Below are positions 6,772 through 23,584 of a DNA stretch of 25,658 bases, piece by piece. This stretch comes from a virus. The stretch lies in the IMG/VR virus record IMGVR_UViG_3300031758_000512, positions 1 through 25,658 of that record. One strand, written 5' to 3'. The notes under the pieces were generated by a model. That model was given only the letters and a program-made list of their open reading frames with translations. It was not told the DNA's origin and did no database searches. A program made the position numbers and the translations under genes. How positions within the stretch are numbered: position 1 is the first letter of the stretch; each line of letters opens with the position of its first letter.

Positions 6772-6987
6772 ATGAACACACAAATACCACCAGACGAGCG
6801 CCGACAACTGGCAGAAAAAGTTGGCATCAATGAACAGTATCTTTACCAGTGCCTGACGGGCCGGCGAGAGATGTCAGCTTGGGAGGCTGTTCGGGTAGAG
6901 CAGCAGACTGAAGGCAGGGTTACTCGGCAGATGGTGTGCCAAGGGAGTTGGCAGTCCATTTGGCCTGAGTTGGTGGAGCAAACGTGA
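6772..6987 (+). CDS. Cro/YdaS-type helix-turn-helix regulator
   Basis: This 71-aa protein has a lambda-type helix-turn-helix: LAEKVGINEQYLYQCLTGRRE (about 13-33) is followed by the SAWEAVRVEQQTEG segment and a C-terminal WPEL, the pattern of the Cro/YdaS family. It is expected to bind as a dimer to the three operators just upstream and to repress one or both divergent promoters. No CI-type repressor is present in the window. No Shine-Dalgarno sequence precedes the ATG and the predicted transcript start is almost at the ATG, so translation may be leaderless. The stop overlaps the methyltransferase start. Confidence 0.8.
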   Translation: MNTQIPPDERRQLAEKVGINEQYLYQCLTGRREMSAWEAVRVEQQTEGRVTRQMVCQGSWQSIWPELVEQT

Positions 6988-7757
6988 ATGAGTTGGCTCT
7001 TTTCGCAGGCGCTGGTGGCGGAATACTTGGGGGGAAACTTCTCGGATGGCGAACAGTCTGTGCCGTCGAGTGGGAAGCCTATCCCGCAAGCGTACTGTGC
7101 GCCAGACAAAATGACGGCTTTCTCCCGCCTTTCCCGATTTGGGATGACGTATGCACCTTTGACGGCAAGCCGTGGAGAGGAATTGTTGACGTTATATCTG
7201 GCGGCTTTCCATGCACCGACATTAGTGCCGCAGGAAAAGGAGCCGGAATCGATGGAGAAGCCTCTGGAATGTGGCGAGAAATGGCGAGGATCATTTGTGA
7301 AGTTCAGCCTAGATTCGTGTTCGTGGAAAACTCACCAATGCTCACTTCTCGGGGACTTGGACGAGTTCTCGGAGACTTGGCCCAAATGGGGTTTGATGCT
7401 CGATGGGGAGTGTTGGGAGCAGCAGACGTTGGTGCAGTCCACCAAAGGGATCGCATTTGGATTGTCGCAGAGCTACCCCCCCCCTCGAAATGGCCTACAC
7501 CAACAGCAACAGATTGGAAAGCGGTTGGCAAATTGGAAACACTAAAACGGCAAGGAAACAATTTCGAGGCAGGAGGGCAAAATCGCCCTCAATATCACTA
7601 CTCACGCCTTATGAACATGAAAATGCCTGTAAGTGCGTCAGAGATGCTGATGTTGTGGCCTATCGAGTGGACAGACTTAAAGCCATTGGGAACGGACAAG
7701 TTCCAGCAGTGGCTGCAACAGCATGGAAATTACTCAGTGAAAGAATCTAATGACTAA
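6984..7757 (+). CDS. dcm: DNA cytosine-5 methyltransferase, C-terminus out of frame
   Basis: The N-terminal two thirds are a clear C5-methyltransferase: motif I FAGAGGG (7-13), motif IV GGFPC with catalytic Cys77, motif VI ENS (115-117) and motif VIII QRDRIW (154-159). Motif X is missing from this frame. It occurs in the -1 frame as KAIGNGQVPAVAATAW, ending in TAA at 7748-7750 in perfect TAATG overlap with the next gene. From the 9-C run at codons 165-167 onwards this frame instead encodes WPTPTATDWK ... WTDLKPL, which I take to be the tail of the overprinted protein. One extra C would restore a roughly 255-aa enzyme. The start is a GTG at 6984, five bases after GGAG. As written, activity is doubtful. 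Confidence 0.8.
   Translation: MNELALFAGAGGGILGGKLLGWRTVCAVEWEAYPASVLCARQNDGFLPPFPIWDDVCTFDGKPWRGIVDVISGGFPCTDISAAGKGAGIDGEASGMWREMARIICEVQPRFVFVENSPMLTSRGLGRVLGDLAQMGFDARWGVLGAADVGAVHQRDRIWIVAELPPPSKWPTPTATDWKAVGKLETLKRQGNNFEAGGQNRPQYHYSRLMNMKMPVSASEMLMLWPIEWTDLKPLGTDKFQQWLQQHGNYSVKESND
6988..7545 (+). CDS. Overprinted reading frame inside dcm (MSWLFSQALV family), broken at poly-C
   Basis: An ATG at 6988, nine bases after the same GGAG used by dcm, opens a 185-codon +1 frame starting MSWLFSQALVAEYLGGNFSD. Later come SRFGMTYAPLT, CSWKTHQCSLLGDL and FSETWPKWGLMLDGECWEQQT, which I recall (unverified) from phage hypothetical proteins that continue with WPTPTATDWK and end near WTDLKPL-x-TDKFQ. 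Here that continuation lies in the dcm frame, after the 9-C run. With one added C this frame would run to 7757 and give about 256 aa. A run this long with family-like Trp/Cys-rich motifs is unlikely to be chance, but expression is unproven. No enzymatic motif is recognised. Confidence 0.5.
   Translation: MSWLFSQALVAEYLGGNFSDGEQSVPSSGKPIPQAYCAPDKMTAFSRLSRFGMTYAPLTASRGEELLTLYLAAFHAPTLVPQEKEPESMEKPLECGEKWRGSFVKFSLDSCSWKTHQCSLLGDLDEFSETWPKWGLMLDGECWEQQTLVQSTKGIAFGLSQSYPPPRNGLHQQQQIGKRLANWKH
7476..7484 (+). other. 9-C homopolymer at the frame break of dcm
   Basis: Nine consecutive C bases code for Pro165-167 of the annotated dcm frame. Both overlapping reading frames change register exactly here by the same -1 step. 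One added base would correct both. Confidence 0.8.
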
Positions 7758-9795
7758 CCTAACAACAATATTCCCCAACGGCTTTGCGGCAGCCACAGAA
7801 AGCCAAGACTTGATCAACCCTGAAGAGGGGTTCAGGAAGCACTGTGAGGCAAGTGGCCTGCTGATCAAGGAGATCATTGCTGATGGTGAGATTCACCGTG
7901 TGGCGCATGTTTCGTCCAAGAAGGGTGCATTGGACGGTTGGTACATCTTGCACTCCAGTGGCAAAGTGCCAGTTGGCATTGCGGGGTGCTGGAAAGAGCC
8001 AGTGTTTGAATCCAAATGGATAGCAGACACAGGCCGCGCCATGTCGTTTACTGAGCGCTTTGAGCATGACAAGTGGATCGCTGAAGTCAAGGCCAAGAAA
8101 GAAGCTGACAGGCTGGCTTCGCAGGCGGTGGCTGCCGAACGTGCAGAGGATGAGGTGGGCACATACGCAGATGCAAGTGATGATCATCCCTACCTTGTGA
8201 GGAAGCACGTTGGGGCGCATGGTATCAAGATTGATCGTGCAGGCAGGCTGGTTGTGCCAGTGATCAATCAGGCAGGGGAGATATTGAGTTACCAGACCAT
8301 TGATGCAGATGGCAACAAAAGGTTCTTGAAGGGTGGCAAGATTGAGGGTGGGTTCTACGAGTTGCGCGGGAACCGGAAGATTGTTTTCGTTGGTGAAGGG
8401 TTTGCGACCTGTGCTTCGATCCATGAGGCGACGGGATATACAGTCCTTGTGGCTTTTGATTGTGGGAACTTGGCCAAGGTAGCCAAGAGCGCCAAGGAGA
8501 TGTTCTTAGGCTCGAAGATCATCATCGGTGCGGATAATGATCAGTTCACGGAGGGCAACCCTGGTGTCACTAAGGGCCGTGCGGCGGCTGCTTTGGTGTT
8601 TGGTGAGATTGTGTACCCATCATTTGGTGAGTCTGACATGGTGGATAACAAACCAACAGATTTTAACGACCTGCACTGCTTGCAAGGCTTGGATGCGGTC
8701 AAAGAGCAGATCGAGCGCGTGGCTGGCCCAATGCGGGACAAACTGGCGTTTGAGTTCTCCAGAATAGATAGCTTGGAACTTAGCCAAATCAACTGGATTG
8801 TGGATGACTACATTGAGAGTGACTCGCTGGCGCAGGTGTTTGGTGACCCAGGCGGTGGTAAGTCGTTTGTCTCCATCGACATTGCCTGCTGTGTGGCCAC
8901 CGGACGTGCTTGGCATGGCCATGAGGTTAAGCAAGGCTCGGTGTTCTACATTGCTGGCGAAGGGCATAACGGGTTGGCAAGAAGGTTCAAGGCATGGCAG
9001 TTGGGCAATGGGCAGACCTTGGATGGGGCGCCACTGTACAAGAGCCATAGGGCAGCGCAGTTGTACGACGCAACAGAGGCGGCAGTGGTGGCTGAGAGCA
9101 TCAAAGAGTTGTCAGCGCAGGCTGGCACAACTCCAAGTTTGATTATTATTGATACTTTGGCAAGAAACCACGGCGGTGATGAGAACTCCACCCAAGACAT
9201 GAATGCGTTTATTCAGCACCTTGATACCTACTTGCGCCAACCTTGGAAATGTTGTGTCTTGGTGGTTCACCACTCCGGTGTGGCTGACAAGGATAGAAGT
9301 CGGGGATCAACGGCCTTGAAGGGCGCACTGGATGCGGAGTATCGCTGCCAGTTGGACAGTGGAACTAAAACCATAGCGTTTGAATCCAAAAAGATGAAGG
9401 ATGCAGAGATGCCTGCGCCCAAAAACTTTCAGATCACTCAGGTTGATTTGCCTATCCAAGACAAGAATGGAGCGCCAGTCAAGGGTGCATACCTGACGGC
9501 GGTGGACATCTCGGGCCTGATGGGTAACATCCAAAAGCGTGCTGTGTTATCGGGTAACCAAAAGATAGCTTTAAATTCTTTGGTGTCTATTGAAGCCAAA
9601 AGAACAGCTGATGGGATTCAAGGCTTTGCGGCTATGGTTGACTACGATGAATGGCGGGAAAGCGCCAAAAGCCATGGCTTAAATTCACGCCGGTTTAAGG
9701 AATGTTTGGACGCATTGACTAAGAAATCCATGGTTTTGGAGAATGCTGGCATGTACCGAACTGTACCGAAAACAGAGCCAAATGAGGTTGTATGA
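7750..9795 (+). CDS. TOPRIM primase / RepA-like replicative helicase
   Basis: This 681-aa replication protein combines a DNA primase TOPRIM domain (VGEGFAT with Glu216, ADND at 261-264) with a RecA-fold RepA/AAA_25 helicase domain. The latter has Walker A GDPGGGKS (365-372), Walker B LIIIDT (464-469, Asp468) and VVHHSG (505-510). The N-terminal 120 residues are less conserved, and a charged helix (about 105-137) leads into TOPRIM. It probably primes and unwinds at the phage origin. The last codons (MYRTVPKT) are themselves made of the first two GTACCGAA iterons, so the origin repeats begin inside the gene. The ATG at 7750 forms TAATG with the -1-frame stop of dcm. Confidence 0.85.
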   Translation: MTNLTTIFPNGFAAATESQDLINPEEGFRKHCEASGLLIKEIIADGEIHRVAHVSSKKGALDGWYILHSSGKVPVGIAGCWKEPVFESKWIADTGRAMSFTERFEHDKWIAEVKAKKEADRLASQAVAAERAEDEVGTYADASDDHPYLVRKHVGAHGIKIDRAGRLVVPVINQAGEILSYQTIDADGNKRFLKGGKIEGGFYELRGNRKIVFVGEGFATCASIHEATGYTVLVAFDCGNLAKVAKSAKEMFLGSKIIIGADNDQFTEGNPGVTKGRAAAALVFGEIVYPSFGESDMVDNKPTDFNDLHCLQGLDAVKEQIERVAGPMRDKLAFEFSRIDSLELSQINWIVDDYIESDSLAQVFGDPGGGKSFVSIDIACCVATGRAWHGHEVKQGSVFYIAGEGHNGLARRFKAWQLGNGQTLDGAPLYKSHRAAQLYDATEAAVVAESIKELSAQAGTTPSLIIIDTLARNHGGDENSTQDMNAFIQHLDTYLRQPWKCCVLVVHHSGVADKDRSRGSTALKGALDAEYRCQLDSGTKTIAFESKKMKDAEMPAPKNFQITQVDLPIQDKNGAPVKGAYLTAVDISGLMGNIQKRAVLSGNQKIALNSLVSIEAKRTADGIQGFAAMVDYDEWRESAKSHGLNSRRFKECLDALTKKSMVLENAGMYRTVPKTEPNEVV

Positions 9796-11106: not shown

Positions 11107-11158
11107 GGGGGGGGAGGGGGTGGTCGGTCGCCAGTGAAATTGGTGGTGCCCCACCCCC
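11107..11158. other. G8 run and GC hairpin upstream of terS
   Basis: Eight Gs (11107-11114), an A and five Gs are followed by an arm GGGGGTGG (11116-11123) that can pair with CCACCCCC (11151-11158) across a 27-base loop. A role in packaging recognition or leader structure is only a guess. Confidence 0.4.
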
Positions 11159-22028: not shown

Positions 22029-23584
22029 TGGCTCAACCAATCCAAACATTCAGCATTAGCGCACCAGGCTTTTATGGGTTGAATACTCAGGATAGTCCAT
22101 TGGATTTGGCTAGTGGATTTGCTTTGGTTGCTACTAACTGTGTGATTGACCAATATGGTCGTATTGGATCAAGAAAAGGTTGGACAAGGGTTAATTCTTC
22201 TTCTGGAGACCTTGGTGCTAACGATGTTGGTGTGATCCATGAGTTAGTCCAGACTGATGGCACATTGACTGTGTTGTTTGCTGGCAACAATAAGATATTC
22301 AAACTGAGTAGCACTACTGTTACTGAGTTGACCTATGGGGGGGGTGGTTCTGCTCCTACCATCTCTGCTAGTAATTGGCAGTGTGCTTCTTTGAATGGAA
22401 TCACTTATTTCTTTCAAACAGGGCATGACCCAATCATTTACGACCCTGCTGTAAGTACAACCACTTATAGACGGGTTTCTGAGAAGTCAGGCTATGTAGG
22501 GACTGTTCCTAGTGGGAATCTCGCTATATCGGCTTATGGTCGCTTGTGGGTGGCTTCTACCAGTACAGATAAGGTCACTGTCAGCTTCTCTGATCTGATT
22601 GCAGGTCATGTGTGGTCTGGTGGCACGACAGGAACTTTGGATACGAGTAGAGTTTGGCCTAATGGTGCTGATGAAGTACAAGCCTTGGCTGCTCACAATG
22701 GATTCTTGTTTATCTTTGGCAAGAGACAGATTCTTGTCTATCAGGGGGCGACTACACCTTCTACGATGTCTATTTCTGACACAGTAGGTGGTATTGGTTG
22801 TTTAGCAAGAGACAGTGTTCAGACAACCAGTTCTGATGTGATCTTCTTGTCAAACAGTGGTGTTCGTTCTTTGATGAGAACCATTCAAGAGAAGTCTGCT
22901 CCTGAGAGAGATTTGTCTAAGAATGTGCGTAATGATTTGATGAGTGATGTTGCTTCTCAGAATCTGGCAAACATTAAGTCTGTTTACTCTGAGAGAGAAG
23001 GCTTCTATCTGTTGACGATGCCTGTTACGCAGTCTGTGTACTGTTTTGACAGTAAAGTTATCTTACAAGATGGTTCTTCCCGTGTAACGACATGGGACTC
23101 TATTACGCCTACTTGTTTGGCATCATTGAGGGATGGCTCTGTCTACATTGGTAAGAATGGCTACATTGGTCAATATACGGGCTATAACGACTATCAATCC
23201 ACTTATCGGATGCAGTATTACACAAACCATGCAGACCTTGGTAATGTGAATCAGACATCTGTTTTAAAGAAGATTTCCACTGTCGTGATTGGTGGGACAA
23301 ACCAACCAGTCATTTTTAAGTGGGGCTTTGACTTCAAGACGAACTATCTCAGTGCGACAACAACTATTCCTGTTCAGGGTATTGCCGAGTATGGAATTGC
23401 TGAATATGGTGCTAATGCAACAGTAGTAGCGGAGTATTCTGATGGCGTTGCACTGAATACATTGAAAGTATCTGCCAGTGGTACTGGTAAGGTTGTTCAA
23501 ACTGGTTATGAGTCTGATATTAACGGGTCACAGTTGTCGATCCAAAAGATTGAAATCCAAGCTAAGAATGGGAAACTATCATGA
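22028..23584 (+). CDS. Packaged-DNA stabilisation / tail nozzle protein (P22 gp10-like)
   Basis: This 518-aa protein begins with FYGLNTQDSPLDLASGFALVA and a CVIDQYGRIGSRKGW motif (about 38-52), then a long beta-propeller-like body (NGITYFFQTGHDPIIYD; NGFLFIFGKRQILVYQG). This is the outline of P22 gp10-type stabilisation proteins and podoviral tail nozzles, which seal the packaged head below the adaptor. Translation is coupled to the adaptor by TAATG and to the next gene by ATGA. No peptidase or lysozyme domain is visible. Confidence 0.75.
   Translation: MAQPIQTFSISAPGFYGLNTQDSPLDLASGFALVATNCVIDQYGRIGSRKGWTRVNSSSGDLGANDVGVIHELVQTDGTLTVLFAGNNKIFKLSSTTVTELTYGGGGSAPTISASNWQCASLNGITYFFQTGHDPIIYDPAVSTTTYRRVSEKSGYVGTVPSGNLAISAYGRLWVASTSTDKVTVSFSDLIAGHVWSGGTTGTLDTSRVWPNGADEVQALAAHNGFLFIFGKRQILVYQGATTPSTMSISDTVGGIGCLARDSVQTTSSDVIFLSNSGVRSLMRTIQEKSAPERDLSKNVRNDLMSDVASQNLANIKSVYSEREGFYLLTMPVTQSVYCFDSKVILQDGSSRVTTWDSITPTCLASLRDGSVYIGKNGYIGQYTGYNDYQSTYRMQYYTNHADLGNVNQTSVLKKISTVVIGGTNQPVIFKWGFDFKTNYLSATTTIPVQGIAEYGIAEYGANATVVAEYSDGVALNTLKVSASGTGKVVQTGYESDINGSQLSIQKIEIQAKNGKLS

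Follow-up and report, generated by a model that had tools for sequence, protein, structure and literature searches.

The window analysed here, a 25,658-nt virus record from IMG/VR (IMGVR_UViG_3300031758_000512, positions 1 to 25,658), carries two overlapping coding frames at a single C5-methyltransferase locus, and in its relatives both frames are open and under purifying selection. We consider it likely that the locus represents a naturally split, two-subunit C5 DNA methyltransferase resembling M.EcoHK31I, in which the subunit genes overlap almost fully and a homopolymer sets the reading frames in some lineages. The methyltransferase frame is referred to as alpha and the +1 frame as beta.

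Organization of the locus

The frame-0 ORF (6984-7757) encodes 257 aa from a GTG start and matches the Pfam model DNA_methylase over residues 4-165 (2.2e-28), and the +1-frame ORF (6988-7545) encodes 185 aa from an ATG. Both had been recognized in a preliminary description of this DNA, which reported motifs I-VIII in frame 0 and a +1 frame open for 185 codons from 6988. That description had also placed the two tails in new frames after position 7484, and this is correct: downstream of the C9 tract, frame 0 continues from the alpha head into the MSW-type tail (WPTPTATDWK...WTDLKPLGTDKFQQW), and the third frame (ORF 7403-7750) holds the methyltransferase tail (AIGNGQVPAVAATAWKLL; AIGNGQVP). It missed, however, that a single homopolymer is the point at which both frames change, and that intact relatives have both ORFs at full length without a shift. 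The tract is the longest mononucleotide run of the window. Two G8 runs are found elsewhere, at 11107-11114 and 22337-22344.

The features of the locus are listed in Table 1. The match of the upstream 71-aa ORF to YdaS_toxin (Pfam, 2.5e-06) falls below the gathering cut-off; the overlap of its stop with the alpha start makes translational coupling possible. The downstream primase-helicase matches AAA_25 (1.1e-37) and Toprim_3 (4.7e-09) in Pfam and phrog_2249, DNA primase.

Table 1. Overlapping methyltransferase pair and neighboring features, in coordinates of the window
Feature	Position	Strand	Basis
Upstream small ORF, 71 aa, YdaS/Cro-like helix-turn-helix; stop overlaps alpha start	6772..6987	+	ORF list, Pfam
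Shine-Dalgarno-like GGTGGAG, in reach of GTG 6984 and ATG 6988	6972..6978	+	Read from sequence; inference
Alpha head, C5-methyltransferase motifs I-VIII (LFAGAGG, FPCTDIS, ENS, QRDRIWIVA)	6984..7475	+	Pfam, PHROGs, HhaI structures, dN/dS
Beta head (MSWLFSQALV...), +1 frame over alpha head	6988..7475	+	Open in relatives; phrog_1008 1.2e-08
C9 tract directly after motif VIII; both genes switch frame there	7476..7484	+	Sequence
Beta tail, target-recognition-like module (WPTPTATDWK...)	7491..7757	+	ORF list; beta-tail HMM
Degenerate motif IX inside beta tail, PVSASEMLMLWPIEWTDL	about 7626-7679	+	Sequence
Alpha tail with motif X (AIGNGQVPAVAATAWKLLSERI), third frame, ORF 7403-7750	7682..7750	+	ORF list
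TOPRIM/AAA primase-helicase; ATG overlaps end of the pair (operon context)	7750..9795	+	Pfam, PHROGs

Both frames are open in relatives

Scans of IMG/VR returned at least 597 relatives with the +1 protein and at least 598 with the frame-0 ORF. Searching with both proteins and inspecting the other frame, as the preliminary description had proposed, showed that the partner frame is open in most relatives, and most have both ORFs at full length (about 230-370 aa). Relative to the methyltransferase frame, the beta ATG has a constant position, the alpha start often lies 4 nt upstream of it (ATGAATGAG, GTGAATGAG, TTGAATGAG), and the alpha and beta stops are usually within about 20 nt of each other. 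Sets seeded with beta, including the IMG/VR set collected with the MSW-type protein and the set used for codon shuffling, are biased toward an open beta frame. Of 80 loci fetched with the frame-0 ORF of the window, about 74 have a +1 frame without stops up to, or almost up to, the end.

The openness of the +1 frame exceeds chance. When the codons of the methyltransferase head were shuffled synonymously in the window sequence, the +1 frame was open in 2% of trials, and the same shuffle in 80 relatives, which had been fetched with the +1 protein, left it open in a median of 0 of trials. Per gene, synonymous shuffling of the methyltransferase codons introduced about 5 stops into the +1 frame, and the reverse shuffle gave about 10. 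The preliminary description had held that stops scattered through the +1 frame of homologous dcm genes would refute the overlap; this is true only of canonical one-chain enzymes (Propionibacterium phage PFR1, streptococcal phages), whose catalytic frame retains both the target-recognition region and motif IX.

The alpha/beta overlap occurs in hundreds of phages and prophages. Annotated phages with the same pair infect Pseudomonas, Acinetobacter, Salmonella, Vibrio, Klebsiella, Microcystis, and Stenotrophomonas. The phage records that we examined usually annotate one frame only, as 'methyltransferase' or 'hypothetical protein', the exceptions being pairs that are nested or split, for example Lily gp62/gp63 and Tucker gp91/gp90. 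A beta scan of bacterial and archaeal species genomes yielded 145 matching stretches. In 78 of the best 80 of these, a methyltransferase head overlaps beta in the -1 frame, which bears out the earlier suggestion that MSWLFSQALV-type proteins are systematically the +1 frame of dcm; the other two (L249 and L276) are copies of this pair with disturbed frames, and a stand-alone beta without alpha was not found among these 80. Since the scan was seeded with beta, the openness of beta in this set is given by construction, whereas that of alpha is not. The matches come from taxa such as Pseudomonas, Acinetobacter, Halomonas, Burkholderia, Akkermansia, Planctomycetota, and Spirochaetia, and from a MAG with an archaeal label. 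Among RefSeq Escherichia coli, few genomes (4 of 5,426) have the Salmonella-type version.

Purifying selection changes its dominant frame at motif VIII

Purifying selection acts on alpha and on beta alike, and which of the two frames dominates changes at motif VIII. In the head (motifs I-VIII; 155 codons, independent pairs binned by divergence), dN/dS of alpha was 0.12-0.20 and NN/NS of beta 0.61-0.87, varying with divergence. No stop was seen in the beta frame of the head, against 47-85 expected if alpha-synonymous changes were relocated randomly (two largest bins). Similarity of the beta heads also exceeded the null, with BLOSUM z scores of +9 to +14 in the three better sampled of four bins and by 3.5 standard deviations in the smallest bin.

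In the tail, this pattern was reversed, with an overall dN/dS of 0.50 for alpha and 0.19 for beta. The middle region gave 0.86 [0.70-1.05] for alpha and 0.17 [0.12-0.23] for beta, and the last 42 codons gave 0.34 [0.26-0.42] and 0.34 [0.27-0.44], respectively. Loci used in the tail tests had been pre-filtered for both ORFs being full length. For the alpha middle of these loci, shuffling of the beta codons leads one to expect about 3.7 stops per locus; because of the filter, the fair claim is limited to the alpha middle being open in most unfiltered loci, although it is near neutral at the protein level. The two-frame dN/dS analysis had been proposed together with the inference of a conserved dual-coding pair of about 770 bp, and that inference stands, both frames being open and selected.

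Beta resembles the target-recognition and motif IX half of the enzyme

Motifs and profile matches show the beta tail to be a homologue of the part of one-chain C5 methyltransferases that comprises the target-recognition region and motif IX. Beta tails of relatives read WPTPxxxD... LNPxWVEWLMGWPxGWT. In phage PFR1, a single frame contains motif VIII, LLPTPTARDVKD..., LSARFVEWMMGLPDGLVT, and LRALGNGAVPQQA, i.e., motif VIII, the target-recognition region, motif IX, and motif X are all encoded in one frame. A beta-tail HMM, searched against 286 background ORFs with E-values calculated for 10,000 sequences, matched the catalytic-frame ORFs of Babsiella gp54 (6.5e-9) and PFR1 (1.5e-6). The tail motifs and the HMM match to one-chain enzymes suggest that beta is the target-recognition and motif IX half, with an overprinted N-terminal half. 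A second polypeptide with motif IX in an overlapping frame, as an M.EcoHK31I-type enzyme should have, is predicted from the HMM and from the overlap in 78 of 80 genome matches. In the window, the motif IX match is degenerate (EMLMLWPIEW).

Among PHROGs families, the matches of beta are to phrog_1008 ('DNA methyltransferase') and, for its C-terminal end, to phrog_26627 and phrog_35493 (unknown function). The latter two, at about 70 aa each, are probably fragments of the motif IX end of beta, as far as their sequences indicate. Dual coding is not mentioned in any of the three entries, which give the function as 'DNA methyltransferase' or unknown. We found no model matching beta in Pfam and NCBIfam, and AlphaFold predictions were poor and gave no support for a model, with a pLDDT of 53.7 for beta alone and 46.8 for the fusion ORF of the window with head and tail rows. 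A function for beta as second half of the enzyme, the tract, and the precedents (M.EcoHK31I; Streptococcus thermophilus 5093-group phages) were all absent from the preliminary description.

Alpha lacks motif IX

Alpha contains motifs I-VIII including the catalytic PC and ENx and thus satisfies what is expected of a C5 DNA methyltransferase. Its head matches phrog_363 (3.3e-55) and residues 4-161 match HhaI structure chains (5e-11). By contrast, the expectation that motifs IX and X lie in one chain in frame with motifs I-VIII is not fulfilled: alpha of relatives ends ...EPDVGRV...RVDRLKAIGNGQVP without motif IX in frame, the IX-like region being in the beta frame and motif X in the alpha frame (in the third frame in the window copy). 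A large chain with motifs I-VIII and X that lacks motif IX is what M.EcoHK31I-type enzymes have, and alpha fits this description. We infer that the locus works as a C5 methyltransferase only as a two-chain enzyme.

In a few loci (L207, L216, L236), a stop interrupts the alpha frame behind or close to motif VIII, which may reflect error, decay, or a phase state. In L083 and L088, alpha ends early and motif X closes the beta-frame ORF. In L266:2470-3670, from a Spirochaetia MAG, alpha is 179 aa long and stops behind motif VIII, and both IX and X are found in the beta-frame ORF, a division of motifs like that of M.AquI but inside an overlapping pair. L083, L088, and L168 have an HNH-like stretch in the third frame (LHRHHLDHNPFNNQKSNIAILCQICHGTLH in L083), located after motif IX and before the motif X region, about 700-1000 nt downstream of the LFAGAGG codons.

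A homopolymer tract recurs at the domain junction

C or G runs of at least 9 nt occur 14 times in 102 kb within the gene versus 3 times in 481 kb of flanks, so that the excess over background expected of a tract in a phase-variable coding region is met. Ten of the 14 in-gene runs fall directly behind motif VIII (nt 476-487), in C lineages as well as in G lineages, and lengths of 9-15 recur at the tract in independent lineages. A pattern scan at motif VIII picked up 14 contigs in which the C run is 9 nt or longer; the poly-G variant of this pattern had no match, yet G11-12 tracts exist with other codons. In seven viral records checked, the tract was the sole C10 run. Most relatives have no long tract at the junction.

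Some contigs differ only in tract length. L182 (C12) differs in this way from L186 and L187 (C13), and L184 (C12) from L189 (C11), with 100% identical flanks in both sets over 490 nt upstream and 270 nt downstream (760 nt in total); all are assembled metagenome contigs, in which homopolymer errors are possible. Both ORFs are full length in L182 and L190, the alpha head is joined to the beta tail in the window (C9) and L184 (C12), and the beta head is joined to the alpha tail in L189 (C11) and L186 (C13). Such differences in tract length are what slipped-strand phase variation gives, and the tract is likely a phase-variable switch, although homopolymer assembly error is not excluded in these contigs. 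More tentatively, the homopolymer could be a three-state mutational switch for both methyltransferase subunits, with both chains on, an alpha head with the target-recognition/IX tail, or a beta head with the motif X tail. Such a switch would produce mixed modification states within one phage population, and the fused proteins might serve roles of their own; we regard this as possible, if somewhat less likely than not.

A second tract site, poly-G (G9-G15), is found in the motif IV region of alpha in L024, L055 (nt 234 from LFAGAGG), and L249:2746. L249 changes frame at this tract.

Two-chain model and alternative explanations

According to the two-chain model, alpha would provide the catalytic motifs I-VIII, a tolerant middle linker, and motif X at its end, and beta, starting 4 nt after alpha, would provide the target-recognition modules (LPTPxxxD...) and motif IX (LNPxWVEWLMGWPxGWT) behind its overprinted N-terminal half. 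The two chains would form a single enzyme for methylation of phage DNA, with evasion of host restriction as its probable purpose. In the subset of lineages with a C/G homopolymer at the alpha/beta domain junction, the tract would set the frames of both chains at once, one tract length class giving both chains at full length and the other two swapping or truncating the tails. C9 in the window would represent a swapped state, in which the alpha head is fused to the beta tail, the beta head is truncated, and motif X is out of frame. The analysis demonstrates dual coding, selection on both frames, the homology of the beta tail, the recurrence of the tract, and its differing length among contigs. 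Complex formation, methylation activity, the need for both chains, and reversible switching are inferred, and there is no protein-level evidence for either chain.

Could the two frames instead yield a single chain by ribosomal frameshifting or transcriptional slippage near motif VIII, without a separate product of the beta head? The slippery homopolymer sits at the right junction in some lineages, and the fused order of motifs I-VIII, target-recognition region, and motif IX resembles that of canonical enzymes. Yet the homopolymer is absent from the junction in most loci, motif X would require another frame change, the beta head keeps a conserved ATG and excludes stops, and the alpha middle is open in most relatives despite near-neutral selection on its protein, which makes recoding unlikely in our judgment. 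It is hardly credible that the +1 ORF is a by-product of methyltransferase conservation and codon bias. The +1 frame of distant one-chain enzymes does have short similar stretches, but codon shuffles predict about 5 stops per gene, stops are absent where tens are expected, and selection reverses after motif VIII; the selection tests already contradict this reading, and we rejected it on the codon shuffles and the relocation test.

The frame change in the window is a separate question, and a mere homopolymer assembly error in a virus that has both genes intact is a serious possibility, even if we lean against it. The near relative L190 has the same tail and both ORFs at full length, homopolymers are error-prone, and only single contigs are available; against this, long C or G tracts recur at this site in independent lineages, far above background, and L184, 93-96% identical to the window, shares its frame state. 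We also regard it as very unlikely that beta is an independent regulator or anti-restriction protein and no methyltransferase subunit. Such a role would agree with a beta head that has neither a Pfam or NCBIfam match nor a known fold, but not with the homology of the tail to the target-recognition region and motif IX, with the lack of any beta without alpha among the best 80 genome matches, or with motif X following the beta frame where alpha is short (L083, L088, L266).

Hundreds of phages and prophages appear to encode a second, largely unrecognized protein over their methyltransferase gene. Should the two-chain model hold, target specificity sits in the chain that annotation most often misses, and alpha looks too short and without motif IX because the specificity/IX half lies in beta. 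The family is a large, testable case in which two genes overlap almost entirely and selection is reciprocal from domain to domain, and its phages have culturable hosts; a shared homopolymer would be an economical switch for a two-subunit enzyme.

Comparison with known systems

The small-subunit gene of M.EcoHK31I is said to lie inside the large gene in a different frame. The pair described here is like that enzyme in having two chains, with motifs I-VIII and X in one and motif IX in the other. It differs in that beta spans nearly the whole alpha gene, only 4 nt separate the starts, and both genes can be shifted by a homopolymer. Two-chain C5 methyltransferases include M.AquI (alpha/beta) and M.EcoHK31I, whose large subunit has motifs I-VIII, X, and the target-recognition domain and whose small subunit has motif IX (PMC3404938). 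The target-recognition domain is therefore placed differently, in beta here and in the large subunit there; for the present pair, a location in the large chain is contradicted by dN/dS in the middle region (0.86 for alpha, 0.17 for beta) and by the one-chain homology of beta. M.AquI alpha/beta and gp91/gp90 of Mycobacterium phage Tucker are split between motif VIII and the target-recognition region, as here, but have both IX and X on beta, and the Tucker genes overlap only slightly.

Total overlap of two C5-methyltransferase ORFs in different frames, as seen here, has been reported for S. thermophilus 5093-group phages, alongside an S. pneumoniae phage and Tn5252 (PMC5601072); the passage on this overlap reports neither a selection test nor a tract. 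In other streptococcal phage methyltransferases examined, motifs IX and X are kept in the catalytic frame, so the +1 ORF there need not be a target-recognition/IX subunit, and the overlapping methyltransferases of streptococci may be a different case. Three Streptococcus phage loci (L191-L193) encode canonical HhaI-like enzymes with a long +1 ORF that ends SLSDILEE...FLS and whose head matches the beta profile (E 3e-13 to 2e-7), a candidate overlapping family.

In bacteriophage Lily gp62/gp63 ('g62 internal gene'), the nested +1 ORF includes a target-recognition-like module, ends in a motif-IX-like sequence, and matches phrog_1008 (5.8e-44). In Lily, the beta ORF begins within the alpha gene and not at its start, and there are +1 stops near the alpha start. 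In the open literature searched, we found no report of a homopolymer tract in phage C5 methyltransferases, although such absence is weak evidence, and none of near-complete overlap of catalytic and target-recognition subunits, reciprocal selection, and wide spread. Nested C5 methyltransferase genes are already known, and the near-complete overlap, the reciprocal selection, and the shared tract look new.
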